Below, one piece after another: positions 3,284 to 49,127 of a stretch of DNA of 64,000 bases. A model generated the notes under the pieces. The model was not told the DNA's origin. It did no database searches and saw only the letters and a program-made list of their open reading frames with translations. The translations under genes were made by a program, and so were the position numbers. Where the stretch lies: assembly GCF_000304335.1 (NCBI RefSeq), contig NZ_CAJF01000010.1, forward strand, positions 1-64,000, read 5' to 3'. Source of the stretch: Microbacterium yannicii PS01 (GTDB taxonomy: Bacteria; Actinomycetota; Actinomycetes; Actinomycetales; Microbacteriaceae). Every line of letters begins with the position of its first letter. Position 1 is the stretch's first letter.

Positions 3284-4222
3284 TCAGACCTTGGGTTGAT
3301 GCGTCTCGATGGCCACGATGCCGGAGCCGGGATTGTCGACCGAGAGGTGCACGACCGAGAACGCCGCCGGATCCAGAGCCGACGCGCTGCCGAGGTAGGA
3401 GCCGCGCAGCGTGCCGGTCGCCAGCGCGATCTCGGTGAGGATCTCGGGGAGCACCGGGCCATGGCTGCACAGCACGGCGGCCTTGCGGGCGCGCACGCGC
3501 TCACCGACCACGGCGCGGGCGTCCGAGGTGCCGGTCTCCCAGGCGTCCTGACTGATCCGCTTCGTGGTGTGGATCTTGCGTCCGAGGTTGGCCGACAGCG
3601 GCTCCAGCGTCTTCACGCACCTGACCGCCGGGCTCGAGATCAGCTTGCGCGCGCCGAAGGCCAGGAGCGGGCCGACGATCGATTGCGACTGCTTCCTGCC
3701 CCGCGGGGCGAGGGGCCTGTCGGCATCCTCTCCGTCCCACTCCTCCCTGCCCAGCGCCTTGCCGTGCCGCAGCACGATGAGCGGGAAGGTGCTGAGCACC
3801 CCCTCCTCGACGATCCGGACGAAGTTCTCGAGGATCTCCACGTCCACGGGGTAGCTGAGCCGGGCGAGCGCCTTCTTGGGCGTCATCCACTCCAGCGCGG
3901 CGATCTCTCTGTTCGGCAGGAACGTCGAGGCGCGGATGGCGTCGTCGGTCGCCTCGGCGGCCCAGTAGTGCACGATCTTCGTGCGCTTGCTCGGCAGGCG
4001 GTAGCGCGAGACGCCGACCGGGATGCCGAGCACGACACGGATGCCGGTCTCTTCGTGGATCTCGCGCGCCGCGGTCTCGGCGAGCATCTCGCCGGGATCG
4101 ACCTTGCCCTTGGGCAGCGTCACGTCGCGGTACTTGGTGCGGTGGATCAGGAGCACGCGGAGCTTGCCGTCGACGAGACGCCAGACAACCCCTCCCGCCG
4201 CGTAGACCGCGGTCTCGGTCAT
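3284..4222 (-). CDS. mutT1: MutT1-like NUDIX hydrolase fused to histidine phosphatase
   Basis: This 312-residue protein joins two enzymes. Residues about 5-135 are a NUDIX domain with the box starting at Gly39 ([15 protein letters not shown]). Residues about 145-310 are a histidine-phosphatase domain with the catalytic RHG at 152-154 and a second active-site His in a SHGPVLPE segment near 260. The same fusion in mycobacterial MutT1 hydrolyses 8-oxo-dGTP and diadenosine polyphosphates. ATG at 4222 overlaps the ppk1 stop (ATGA), so the two are translationally coupled. Placement after polyphosphate kinase is conserved in Actinobacteria and fits a nucleotide or polyphosphate housekeeping role. 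Confidence 0.92.
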
Positions 4223-44492: not shown

Positions 44493-44671
44493 TTCATGAC
44501 TTCTCGCCAGGGCGGACCGGCATCGAGTCGCGCTCTACATCGCTCTCGCGCCATCTGACCTCGACGGGACCGAGGCAGGCCGTAACCCGCTGCGACGAGG
44601 ATCACTCTGTGTGTGAGCCGCTCGCTGATGGCGCCGGTGCCCTCGCCCTTGCGTGAGCGCCGGCGTGCCTC

Positions 44672-45811
<1,140 letters not shown>

Positions 45812-45913
45812 CTAGAGAGCGGGCGTGGCCACCCTTCGCGCGTGACGTGCCGTGACGCCCGGCATCCGCTCTCGTCCTCTCTTCGGTGCCGGCGGCTCGG
45901 TGGGCGTGCCCGT

Positions 45914-45985
45914 CAACAGGTCAACCGGCGCTCCGCAGGAGGGATATGCGCGCGAACCTCCTGCGAAAGGCTGGTGGACCTGTTG
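45914..45985 (+). repeat. 72-nt double-stem palindromic repeat, copy A
   Basis: Outer 13-nt arms (CAACAGGTCAACC and GGTGGACCTGTTG, one mismatch) surround inner 7-nt arms CAGGAGG and CCTCCTG in a fixed 13-9-7-14-7-9-13 layout. It lies in the 428-nt gene-free interval 45803-46230, which otherwise holds copy B and no recognisable gene. Confidence 0.85.
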
Positions 45986-46062
45986 CCGCGCGGACGGGGG
46001 AGCGAACAGGCGGTCTCCGCTGTCGCCATCCGTTTCCCCTCATCCACACCCCGCCCGCCCTT

Positions 46063-46134
46063 CAACAGGTCAACCGGGGTTCGACAGGAGGAATGTGCGC
46101 GCGAACCTCCTGCGGAAGGCTGGTTGACCTGTCG
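46063..46134 (+). repeat. 72-nt double-stem palindromic repeat, copy B
   Basis: The same layout as copy A, with nearly perfect outer arms (CAACAGGTCAACC, GGTTGACCTGTCG) and identical inner arms CAGGAGG/CCTCCTG. It ends about 97 nt before the GTG of the DUF559 gene and is in the same orientation as A. Confidence 0.88.
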
Positions 46135-46230
46135 GGCGCAGGTTCCTCTACAGCCGCTACGCCACGCGCGTTGTCCACCGATAAGGGTTCCGCGGTCCGG
46201 CACAGCCCGCGCGCATCCCACGATTGCTGC

Positions 46231-47058
46231 GTGCAGGATCTGATGAAGGCAGTCGGGGCCGCGGGCGGCATCGTGCGAGTATCCGTGCTGGTCGACGCCG
46301 GGGTCGGCCGACGCGCGATCTCGCAGGCCGTGGCGCGCGGATGGCTCACCATCCCGAAGCGTGGATGGGTCGCCGACAAGGCCGCCGATCCCTCTCTCGT
46401 CGCCGCCGCGCGGGCCGGGGTCGTGCTGACCTGCATCACCCAGGCGAAGCGACTCGGACTGTGGGTGCTCCAAGAGGACCGTCCGCATGTCGGCGCGGCG
46501 TCGTCCGCCTCGCGGCTGGCGCTGCCCGATGTCAGAGTGCACTGGAGTCTGCCGGTCGTGCCGTGGGCTCCCGGCACGCTGGAGGACGGCATCCTGAACA
46601 CGCTCCTCCTGGTGGCGAGCTGTCAGCCGTACGAATGCGCGCTCGCCGTCTGGGAGTCGGCGCTCAACCGTGGACTCGTCGCCAAGGAGGAGCTGGCACG
46701 ACTCCCGTTGCGGCCTCGTGCTCGACGCCTGCTGGGCGACGCCTCGCCCTTCTCGGACTCGGGTCTCGAGACGATCGTCATCGTGCGCTTGAGGTGGTTG
46801 CGGGTCCCGATCCAGCCGCAGATCTGGATCACTGGGCACCGCGTGGACTTCCTGATCGGCGACCGGCTCGTGCTGCAGGTGGATGGCGGACATCACGTCG
46901 GGCTGCAGCGGGCGGAGGATGTCGCGCACGACGCGGCGTTGACCCTGCTGGGCTATCACGTGATCCGGGTCACCTACGTCCAGGTGGTGGAGCGTTGGCA
47001 CGAGGTGCAGGACCTCATCACGCGAGCCATCGCGCAAGGGCTGCATCGTGCGGCATGA
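46231..47058 (+). CDS. DUF559 / AbiEi-N-terminal-domain nuclease-like protein
   Basis: From GTG 46231 (ATG 46243 is possible) the protein has 275 residues. An N-terminal winged helix (AAGGIVRVSVLVDAGVGR, AVARGWLTIPKRGW) resembles the AbiEi antitoxin N-terminal domain. The C-terminal part is DUF559-like with a restriction-endonuclease core: RVDFLIGDRLVLQVDGG, then HHVGLQRAED and LLGYHVIRVTYVQV. The expected catalytic Glu of the E/QxDG strand is Gln here, as I recall from other actinobacterial members. Such proteins are Vsr/PD-(D/E)xK related, but function is unproven. The gene is bracketed by three copies of a palindromic repeat, two upstream and one 10 nt after the stop. Confidence 0.83.
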   Translation: MQDLMKAVGAAGGIVRVSVLVDAGVGRRAISQAVARGWLTIPKRGWVADKAADPSLVAAARAGVVLTCITQAKRLGLWVLQEDRPHVGAASSASRLALPDVRVHWSLPVVPWAPGTLEDGILNTLLLVASCQPYECALAVWESALNRGLVAKEELARLPLRPRARRLLGDASPFSDSGLETIVIVRLRWLRVPIQPQIWITGHRVDFLIGDRLVLQVDGGHHVGLQRAEDVAHDAALTLLGYHVIRVTYVQVVERWHEVQDLITRAIAQGLHRAA

Positions 47059-47068
47059 ACTGGAGGTT

Positions 47069-47140
47069 CAGCAGGTCAACCGCGGTTCCACAGGAGGATG
47101 CCGCGGCCGAACCTCCTGCGAAAGGCTGGTTGTCCTGTCG
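47069..47140 (+). repeat. 72-nt double-stem palindromic repeat, copy C
   Basis: The same 72-nt layout, directly downstream of the DUF559 gene and in the same orientation as A and B. The inner arms CAGGAGG/CCTCCTG are unchanged; the outer arms pair at 10 of 13 positions. Confidence 0.83.
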
Positions 47141-47264
47141 AGCAGCCGTCCGAACCGCGGGCCGCACACCCCAAGGCCCTTGCCCCGCACACCGCGCGCC
47201 GCCTGGGGGTCAGTGGCGGAAGATAGGCTGTCCTTACCCTTCCGAGCATCGAGGACACCGCGAC

Positions 47265-47966
47265 ATGACAGACCTGATCGACACCACCGAGATGTACCTG
47301 CGCACGATCCTCGAGCTCGAGGAGGAGAACATCGTGCCGCTGCGGGCTCGCATCTCGGAGCGCCTGGGCCACTCCGGTCCGACGGTGTCGCAGACGATCG
47401 GGCGCATGGAGCGCGACGGGCTCGTGGTGGTGTCAGAGGACCGCACGCTCGAACTGACCGATGCCGGGCGTCAGAAGGCCGTCGACGTGATGCGCAAGCA
47501 CCGTCTCGCCGAGCGGCTCCTCTCCGATGTCATCGGCCTGGACTGGGCGTACGTGCACGAGGAGGCGTGCCGCTGGGAGCACGTCATGAGCGAGCAGGTC
47601 GAGCGCCGCCTCGTCGAGCTGCTCGGCCACCCCACCGAGTCGCCGTACGGCAACCCGATCCCCGGGCTCGATCAGCTCGGCGATCTGCCGGCGAACAACT
47701 TCGAGCAGGGCGTGGTGGGCCTCGTCCGCCGCCTCAACGACGCGGGCGAGCCGATCACCGGCACTGTCCGCCGCCTCGCCGAGCCGGCCCAGGTCGACCC
47801 CGAGCTGCTCCAGCAGCTGAAGGGTGCAGGCGTCATCCCGGGCGCGACCGGAGACTACCGCTACAACGAGGGCTACGTGCTCGTGCAGATGCACGGGAAC
47901 GACGAAGGGCTGGAGCTTCCGGTCGAGGTCGCGTCGCACATCTTCCTCGTCGACGAACTGCGCTGA
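47265..47966 (+). CDS. DtxR/IdeR-family metal-dependent regulator
   Basis: A 233-residue regulator with N-terminal winged helix (DLIDTTEMYLRTILELEEE, HSGPTVSQTIGRMERDGLV), a metal-binding/dimer domain (LAERLLSDVIGLDW, EEACRWEHVMSEQVERRLVE, HPTESPYGNPIPG) and a C-terminal SH3-like domain (from about 150). The Cys, Glu and His ligands of the IdeR/DtxR metal site are present, so iron is the likely cofactor, with manganese possible. ATG 47265. No iron-uptake gene is adjacent, which suits a global regulator. Confidence 0.93.
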   Translation: MTDLIDTTEMYLRTILELEEENIVPLRARISERLGHSGPTVSQTIGRMERDGLVVVSEDRTLELTDAGRQKAVDVMRKHRLAERLLSDVIGLDWAYVHEEACRWEHVMSEQVERRLVELLGHPTESPYGNPIPGLDQLGDLPANNFEQGVVGLVRRLNDAGEPITGTVRRLAEPAQVDPELLQQLKGAGVIPGATGDYRYNEGYVLVQMHGNDEGLELPVEVASHIFLVDELR

Positions 47967-48152
47967 CGATTGCGGATTCCTCGGCGCTCAGCATCCGTCA
48001 CCGTCTCGTCCAGGGGACTGCCAGGCGCCCAGCGTGACATATTCGTTACCTTCGGGTAGCCTCGGAAAGTCCACCAGGCGAGAAGCTCGCCGACCGGACC
48101 CCGTGTGAATTGCCTCTCCGGCTCGTCGTTCACGCGGTGAAGCCCGCATATC

Positions 48153-49127
48153 GTGCCCCGAACATCGAGTGCTGACGAGCCAGGCGCCCTCGGCGCAGAG
48201 GCGCCGGAGGACAAAAGTTTGGCTGAAGAGATCGAGTCGCCCGCGAACGAGCAGGACGTCACCCGTCTTTCCCGTCGCACGCGACACCGGGAAACCGCAG
48301 CGCGCCGCCCCCGAGCCGCTGCACCCGCGAAGACCGCACCCGCCACGACGACCGCCCGATCGGCGTCGTCGCCGGTCAAGGCCCCGAACCGCGCGATCAA
48401 GCCGTTGCGCAGCCTGGTGATCCTGAGCATGGTCGGCGGACTCGTCGCCACGGTCGCGATTCCGGCGTTCGCCGCGGCGCGCCCCACCGACGAAGCCGTC
48501 ACCATCCAGCAGATGGCGGCCGACGACGCTCAGTCGTTCGTCGCCGCATCCGACGCGAACGCCACGCAGCTGTCGCGTGAGAGCTACTCGGCCACGACCG
48601 CCGAGGAGATCGAGAAGAAGAAGGCAGCCGAAGCCGCTGCTGAGCGGGCCCGCCTCGCGGCGCAGGCCGCAGCCGCGTCGGCATCGCGCCCCGGCATCAA
48701 GGTCGACCTCAGCATGGTCGCTCCCGGAACCGGTGCGGTGCGGTGGCCTCTGACGAACTTCACCATGGGTGAGGGATTCGGCACACGCGGCGGCGCCCAC
48801 ATGGGCATCGACATGCTCGCCTCCGGCGGAACGCCGATCTATGCCGCCGCCGCCGGTGTCGTGAAGGTGTCGCAGGAGAGTTACGGCGGCTACGGTGTCG
48901 CGGTCACGATCGACCACGTCATCAACGGTCAGCGCGTCGGCACCCTGTACGGCCACATGACCTACGGCAGCCGTCAGGTCGTCCCGGGCCAGACGGTCGA
49001 GGCGGGTCAGATCATCGGTCTCGTCGGCAGCACCGGCCGCTCGACCGCCAACCACCTGCATTTCGAGACGTACCTCAACGGCTCCAACATCGACCCGCTC
49101 GCCTGGCTGCAGCAGAACGCCGGCTGA
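48153..49127 (+). CDS. M23-family peptidoglycan endopeptidase
   Basis: The 324-residue protein has a basic cytoplasmic leader, a membrane anchor or signal helix (about 85-110, LVILSMVGGLVATVAIPAFAAA), a coiled-coil-like Ala/Glu/Lys segment (about 145-172, EEIEKKKAAEAAAERAR) and a C-terminal LytM/M23 domain with zinc ligands His216 and Asp220 (HMGIDML) and His301/His303 in HLHFET. It should cleave peptidoglycan cross-bridges or act as an activator. The GTG start at 48153 has a 187-nt leader upstream with a small GGCGAG/CTCGCC hairpin; no known riboswitch consensus was recognised in it. Confidence 0.92.
   Translation: MPRTSSADEPGALGAEAPEDKSLAEEIESPANEQDVTRLSRRTRHRETAARRPRAAAPAKTAPATTTARSASSPVKAPNRAIKPLRSLVILSMVGGLVATVAIPAFAAARPTDEAVTIQQMAADDAQSFVAASDANATQLSRESYSATTAEEIEKKKAAEAAAERARLAAQAAAASASRPGIKVDLSMVAPGTGAVRWPLTNFTMGEGFGTRGGAHMGIDMLASGGTPIYAAAAGVVKVSQESYGGYGVAVTIDHVINGQRVGTLYGHMTYGSRQVVPGQTVEAGQIIGLVGSTGRSTANHLHFETYLNGSNIDPLAWLQQNAG

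Follow-up and report, generated by a model that had tools for sequence, protein, structure and literature searches.

REPs are thought to be the non-autonomous offspring of RAYTs. In REPtrons palindromes are dispersed between genes, some of them in close pairs, and bracket the gene of a dedicated enzyme, each enzyme type having a repeat of its own (PMC8266576, PMC3733652); the copies of a REP are reported to number in the hundreds (PMC8266576). Here we describe a locus of Microbacterium yannicii PS01 at which a nuclease gene is bracketed by 72-nt palindromes, and which is probably a small mobile unit, REP/RAYT-like in logic, with the nuclease gene lying between its own four-half-site palindromes. 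It resembles the REP/RAYT systems in its dispersed intergenic palindromes, some of them in close pairs, in having the enzyme gene between the same palindromes and in having one repeat per enzyme type, but it differs in its enzyme (a wHTH-DUF559 nuclease rather than an HUH tyrosine transposase), in its elements (approximately 72 nt with four half-sites, where REPs are 20-50 nt long and have GTAG or CGTC at the foot) and in having been found here in Actinomycetes. Many dispersed intergenic copies were found together with copies flanking the enzyme gene, as in a REPtron, and so the system may be called a REPtron by logic, though not by the tests of enzyme and element. None of the 13 aligned PS01 copies has a GTAG/CGTC foot, their feet being of the ACAGG type (in copy A and in the copy at C4:107037 CGTC directly precedes the palindrome by chance), and the 13 strong copies in PS01 are fewer than the hundreds of REPs given in the extract of PMC8266576. 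A search of PS01 for a Y1 transposase (PF01797) gave no matches, compared to matches in 5 of 14 control genomes by the same search, and a RAYT origin was rejected. The first, sequence-only reading of this DNA had proposed a logic like that of REPs and RAYTs with another nuclease family, and this fits the findings below.

Table 1. Features of the palindrome-bracketed nuclease locus of M. yannicii PS01 (positions within the window)
Feature	Position	Strand	Remark
Left neighbour, class-V aminotransferase, presumably serC-like	44672..45802	-	conserved junction flank
Proposed mobile unit: palindromes, nuclease gene and palindrome, serC-dtxR junction	45914..47140	+	
Copy A, 72-nt four-half-site palindrome (R1 family)	45914..45985	+	upstream end of unit
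Copy B, R1 palindrome	46063..46134	+	upstream of gene
DUF559 / Vsr-type nuclease gene, N-terminal AbiEi-like winged helix, 275 aa	46231..47058	+	GTG start, alternative ATG 46243
Winged-helix domain, residues 1-60, proposed half-site reader	46231..46410	+	AbiEi_4, AF2, Foldseek
Nuclease domain, residues 176-275	46756..47055	+	conserved residues, profile and fold matches
Copy C, R1 palindrome	47069..47140	+	downstream end of unit
Right neighbour, presumably a DtxR/MntR-like regulator gene	47265..47966	+	conserved junction flank

The window is the whole 64 kb stretch of PS01 DNA that was analysed. Three 72-nt repeats of equal length and orientation had been proposed to bracket the gene, and both the coordinates and a repeat search agree with this; in the latter, copies B and C were 88% and 76% identical to copy A (76 nt compared). 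Copy C does begin 10 nt past the stop codon of the gene (47056-47058), and a covariance model built from 13 copies of the PS01 genome, copies A, B and C among them (R1), matches only these three copies within the 64 kb, as the claim that the repeat occurs nowhere else in the window had it. The outer arms of each copy are complementary to one another and so are the inner arms, though imperfectly. Four half-sites fit the copies better than the claimed 13-9-7-14-7-9-13 design, in a layout resembling ACAGG...ACAGG...CCTGT...CCTGT with two half-sites per arm about 19 nt apart. The energy fold of copy C as a single strand differs from the palindrome arms. Copies A and B lie 149 nt apart from start to start, similar to the 152-153 nt at two other R1 loci of the PS01 genome. 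No target duplication was seen for the PS01 unit, whose exact ends are only approximate, and comparison of positions 44500-48500 with known RNA families gave just two weak miRNA matches, far under gathering scores.

The protein matches DUF559 in Pfam at 28.9 bits (cut-off 20.6), with matches below the cut-offs to the MTES_1575 REase (20.8 bits) and, across residues 12-45, to AbiEi_4 (18.2 bits); of the proposed AbiEi-like winged helix and DUF559 core, it is thus the DUF559 part that lies above its cut-off. Across 42 family members DUF559 was matched in all 42, MTES_1575 in 36 and AbiEi_4 in 24, and in the alignment of 42 homologs E180, Q197, D206, D218 and D230 are invariant with H221 and D234 near-invariant. 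Among solved structures the profile matched 3hrl (E 4.8e-9) and I-Bth0305I, a homing endonuclease (3r3p, E 7e-4). Four sequences went into an AF2 model, which was weak overall (pLDDT 58) and better in its winged-helix and nuclease parts, and the top Foldseek folds were I-Bth0305I (3r3p, rank 1, prob 1.00, E 0.049), 3hrl and AbiEi (6y8q, E 0.43), all at E of 0.049 or above. The closest solved nuclease folds are therefore 3r3p, the EDxHD homing endonuclease I-Bth0305I, and 3hrl, and the target of nearly 60 bp on which I-Bth0305I dimerises, according to the extract of PMC3943268, is comparable to the 72-nt elements here. Caulobacter VsrA likewise belongs to the DUF559 / PD-(D/E)XK superfamily and is tied to cytosine methylation and predicted T-G repair, but the available extract of that work mentions no palindromes (PMC12907096). 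The gene shares an N-terminal winged helix with the AbiE type IV toxin-antitoxin systems, but its neighbours are the serC-like and dtxR-like genes with no AbiEii partner beside it, and its C-terminal part is a nuclease. The winged helix of residues 1-60 is a putative reader of the half-sites.

Of the 149 genomes sampled in the genus 144 hold DUF559 relatives, as do 28 of 296 in a class-wide sample, and we know of no role for these relatives. Phage or plasmid carriage was considered and rejected: viral contigs gave no match to exact peptide patterns of the window protein, which detect close relatives only, phage records gave no match, and among 72,556 plasmid records a single one, that of a Tsukamurella plasmid, held a relative, annotated as a “type IV toxin-antitoxin system AbiEi family antitoxin domain-containing protein”, that lacks shared flank repeats.

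Bracketing across these relatives was assessed by a flank test, scoring the best direct or inverted match between the 300 nt upstream and the 300 nt downstream of a gene. In a first set from the genus the 45 DUF559 genes had a median score of 43 and the 87 control genes, all taken at these genus loci, one of 14, and 39 of the 45 lay above the 99th percentile of the controls (22.4). The palindrome score alone separated the two groups only weakly: 25 of the 45 upstream and 10 of the 45 downstream flanks exceeded the 95th percentile of the controls, and both flanks did so in 7 of the 45 genes as against 1 of the 87 controls. Shared flank repeats above the 99th percentile were found for 72 of 96 DUF559 genes (26-100% identity; five actinobacterial families), these 96 being the genes with fetched flanks, mostly the best-scoring and some chosen from R1-rich genomes, and so not a random sample. 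Matches that ranked lower or were fragments, at least five of them from other genera and several from this one, were left out; rows L245 and L246 were dropped as duplicates of L129 and L133, and L271 for lack of a tblastn match. Outside the genus 14 of 25 genes exceeded the control 99th percentile, and under a stricter null, in which the upstream flank of one gene was paired with the downstream flank of another, the 99th percentile was exceeded by 13 of the 25 outside the genus and by 39 of 61 within it (below 64% identity). Shared flank repeats within 300 nt were absent from 24 of the 96 genes, including the PS01 paralog C4:81530. The locus is therefore one member of a broad family of palindrome-bracketed DUF559 genes and not a local curiosity. 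Three further DUF559 relatives in PS01 (L039, L040 and L043, at C8, C34 and C4:60377) have shared flank repeats of non-R1 sequence. Another, at C30:24201-24856 (L051/L038), is broken into two reading frames; the one palindrome detected beside it lies downstream, and we read it as a decaying unit.

The palindromes of these genes share a geometry. Among 36 palindrome cores of 55-115 nt, taken from 51 loci with a repeat score of at least 30 and including R1 only once, a strong dyad is present in 30, compared to 1% of shuffled ones. Mean arm pairing over these unrelated sequences is 0.27-0.53 up to 9 nt from the centre, peaks at 0.77-0.97 between 10 and 14 nt, dips at 15-18 nt and peaks a second time at 28-34 nt (0.70-0.97). 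When the inner block of each arm was compared with the outer block, identity was 47 and 51% at lags of 18 and 19 nt compared to 21-34% at the other lags from 12 to 26. This is what four half-sites would leave as a signature, the two in each arm being separated by slightly less than two turns of the helix, and as the geometry is conserved while the sequence is free, it points to palindromes that are recognised by a protein.

All nine sampled orthologs of the gene (64-100% identity) sit at the junction of the two neighbouring genes, which we take to be serC-like and DtxR/MntR-like, with R1 copies on both sides, a count that includes PS01, whose own copies supplied the R1 model; a tenth ortholog, in sp. 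Leaf288, also has R1 copies on both sides. The proposed tie between the nuclease gene and its own palindromes is upheld by these nine orthologs and by the flank repeats of the 72 relatives. A survey of the best 80 of 582 named loci found via the dtxR-like protein matched both neighbours in 78, of which 74 hold no DUF559 gene, with gaps of 69-215 nt and one of 433 nt (at a junction where serC was matched only in part). The junctions of M. trichothecenolyticum, sp. Leaf288 and sp. Root180 are filled, and the remaining one, in sp. 2FI, holds a truncated gene with a weak R1 copy. Junctions with and without the unit, the existence of which had been put forward as a check, are thus both found. No R1 match (E up to 0.1) was found in the fetched stretch of any of the 74 gene-free junctions, and so repeats at this locus in strains lacking the gene, a finding that was to count against the sequence-only reading, were absent.

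At one such junction the insertion itself can be seen. In genome G064 a stretch of 48/49 nt occurs on both sides of the unit, its two copies agreeing in 47 of 49 columns, and the palindromes lie 7 and 11 nt inside the inserted piece; M. jejuense, which is very similar to G064 in both flanks, has one related copy of the stretch and no unit, giving one filled and empty site with a target duplication in keeping with the suggestion that the unit is mobile. With annotated ends, the target-duplication score was 43 for G064 and 7-12 for the nine other R1 units (1 of 10 positive), and we take these nine insertions to be older or imprecise, or else of a different type. When 71 units were scanned more widely no further case came up, but that of G064 itself was missed too, as the alignment ran into the duplication, and so the scan is insensitive as a negative. 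A tree of serC and dtxR, made for 24 selected loci, has filled and empty species interleaved, with sister pairs G064/M. jejuense (support 100), G101/M. ureisolvens (100) and Root180/M. flavescens (93), and the DUF559 tree, in which several nodes are weak, conflicts with it, for example in joining Root180 and G101 (81). Gene identity for the pair M. trichothecenolyticum and Leaf288 is 96.1%, above that of the flanks (93.3 and 94.4%), and for the pair G048 and G100 it is 85.8%, far below that of the flanks (96.6 and 96.1%). We read these comparisons of sequences as suggesting repeated arrival, or conversion, at one junction, and there may have been repeated loss in older cases. Recurrent occupation of one junction recalls homing endonuclease genes, but the nine sampled orthologs here are intergenic rather than in an intron, intein or conserved gene, and they have palindromic ends, lone palindromes elsewhere and, in one case, a 48-nt target duplication. 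A DNA transposon or insertion sequence has terminal inverted repeats and a target duplication of fixed length; the units here have palindromic ends, with a 48/49-nt duplication in one case and none in the nine other R1 units.

Two further observations were made at this junction. The ortholog of G100 (L107:4256-5438) has an in-frame TGA, and its serC-side flank carries several tandem half-palindromes of the left arm only, as if arms had been cut or had slipped during repair. The serC-dtxR locus of record JASDDH010000016.1 (L173), titled Planococcus sp. APC 4015, groups inside the Microbacterium loci, and the record is probably mislabelled.

The repeat is not confined to the locus and is dispersed across the PS01 genome. 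A search of the 3.95 Mb assembly (67 contigs) gave 13 R1 copies above 60 bits, namely copies A, B and C and ten at six other loci (three on contig C48, two each on C11 and C4 and one each on C9, C6 and C54), with one 40-bit match (C36) and a few lower. None of the ten dispersed copies has a DUF559 gene next to it (the C9 copy sits 316 nt from a contig end, so that one side is not visible), the nearest above-cut-off DUF559 gene being 25 kb away and a below-cut-off match lying 13 kb from the C11 copies. Whether copies cluster at DUF559 genes had been put forward as a check; they do so in the bracketing of the nine orthologs and not in the case of these ten. Scatter independent of DUF559 genes had been named as evidence against the sequence-only reading and scattered copies away from such genes were indeed found; they are nonetheless compatible with it because a REPtron-like system expects them and high copy number tracks the cognate gene. 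Paired copies in PS01 have spacers of 77-81 nt, and a conserved spacer was rejected as these are alike in length and differ in sequence, the tandem C48 array excepted.

R1 has at least one match in 39 of the 149 genomes of the genus, and the copies dispersed in PS01 and across the genus exclude a chance or purely local repeat. Counting both strands, so that copy number is about half, and among the matches listed, ten or more R1 matches were found in 9 of 9 carriers of the ortholog compared to 2 of 140 other genomes (G027 and G086), and five or more in 9 of 9 carriers compared to 6 of 140 others, a test inflated by the relatedness of the genomes and by the training of the model on PS01. Genome G027 has at least 16 matches (both strands) and no ortholog of the gene, and G086 at least 10, and so copies persist or spread without this gene; those of G027 may be a relic population or may be mobilised by another protein. 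At least nine matches were listed in G129, which holds a split relative of the gene. In G064, locus L118 has double-stem palindromes of other sequence near an R1 copy (approximately 3634-3702 and just 3′ of 4238), which perhaps belong to the families of that genome's other DUF559 genes.

Could the palindromes instead be operator sites, through which the winged helix autoregulates its own gene, the scattered copies being a small regulon or leftovers? AbiEi autoregulates its own gene, an AbiEi-like wHTH is present here, four half-sites on one dyad resemble a protein-binding site, and upstream copies often lie about 90-270 nt ahead of the start. Equal copies are also found downstream of the gene, however, and none of 28 dispersed R1 clusters lies in a divergent (promoter-only) gap, compared to 40 of 131 background gaps, while 18 lie in convergent and 10 in tandem gaps (background 33 and 58) and none within genes. 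These clusters came from 27 fetched loci outside the window, with 8 clusters beside DUF559 genes set aside and genes taken from a simple codon-score caller; several of the clusters have orthologs among the others, in different genomes, and so are not independent, and two of the matches are weak. At the junction, moreover, unit and repeats are gained or lost together, and an operator would need neither dispersal nor insertion. We consider this explanation unlikely.

Each type of gene has a repeat of its own. Among 63 genes the likeness of repeats has a median of 30 for proteins above 70% identity and of 9-11 below, repeats being alike mainly among proteins above approximately 65-70% identity, and in a Mantel test of repeat against protein similarity 0 of 300 permutations reached the observed value. 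This shows divergence in step and does not tell which domain decides the sequence, as common descent predicts it too. A second model, R2, was made from the palindromes of DUF559 genes in G030, G118 and G066 and run on 40 chosen genomes, giving 33, 25 and 44 matches in these three, 22 in G024, 53 in G053, 1-14 in 20 of the remaining genomes and none in 15 (G000, G051 and G073 among them). Among the matches listed, R2 brackets DUF559 genes outside its training set in G053, G024, G097 and G010, and lies on one side only of that in G012. The gene of G097 (L143) is one of the 24 that failed the flank test, yet R2 copies bracket it farther out, one of them about 0.8 kb off with another open frame between. 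The 14 fetched loci with a lone R2 copy gave no DUF559 match. In another family, the DUF559 gene of G276 is bracketed by a palindrome of its own, which is also found at two further places in that genome and in none of five other genomes searched.

These differences bear on whether the repeats are REP- or MITE-like and spread by another enzyme, with the DUF559 gene as a passenger or hitch-hiker. Copies do flank other genes: in PS01 two opposite R1 copies lie around an alpha/beta hydrolase gene (L044:4038-5453; C4:107037-108452), showing that an unrelated gene can be bracketed by R1, and in G112 two R2 copies 1 kb apart (L300, C1:1240966-1242073) surround a 286-aa open frame with no recognised domain, which is not DUF559 by Pfam or tblastn. 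G027, with many copies and no gene, fits the same explanation. Against it, the repeats differ in sequence between gene types, flank repeats are shared at 72 of the 96 genes across five families, and the PF01797 search of PS01 gave no Y1 transposase, and so we think this quite improbable.

It is very improbable that ordinary duplication has multiplied palindromes which serve as bidirectional transcription terminators or as hairpins at mRNA ends. Most copies do form strong hairpins, the dispersed ones prefer convergent gene ends and avoid genes, and some two-sided compensatory changes occur. There is no T run in the 8 nt after the copies examined, however, the primary sequence is mostly invariant rather than covarying, and the association with DUF559 genes, the lag between half-sites (18-19 nt) and the insertion together with the gene are left unexplained. 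Compensatory changes had been proposed as a check on the arms, and the two-sided signal was weak on 13 copies (2 pairs, with the primary sequence largely invariant) and modest on 54 copies (8 pairs and 13 cells, where 500 shuffles reached at most 5 and 7); RNA-type covariation was rejected.

The palindromes are associated with the DUF559 genes, are paired around them and are dispersed through the genomes, and from this we infer that they are bound and cut by the nuclease and that their movement is driven by it rather than by another enzyme. The gene of a protein that joins an AbiEi-like winged helix to a nuclease of the Vsr/EDxHD type would thus lie between copies of the element which that protein recognises. 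The element is a 72-nt palindrome with inverted arms, each of them carrying two half-sites in direct orientation at a spacing of 18-19 nt. The protein would most likely bind the element as a symmetric multimer and might then cut or nick the element or an adjoining target, and repair of the break could copy the whole unit, or a lone palindrome, into new intergenic sites, so that the scattered lone palindromes would be non-autonomous offspring of the unit. More widely, we lean towards a class-wide actinobacterial mobile family, of Vsr/EDxHD nucleases with winged-helix readers, palindromic ends of their own and dispersed lone palindromes, in which new recognition sequences have repeatedly evolved while the geometry was kept, and which would be an independent REPtron-like invention with an unrelated nuclease.

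To our knowledge no enzyme of this class owns dispersed palindromes, and in the extracts of open-access literature searched no description of DUF559 genes with palindromic repeats was among the matches listed; we therefore call this ownership new, the overall strategy being already known. If the proposal is true, many DUF559 relatives would gain a role, each with a built-in substrate, and REP-like repeat families could arise without HUH transposases. The dozens of natural pairs of protein and element, with a geometry in common and a sequence that is not, would then form a set for learning how this class of nuclease reads DNA.
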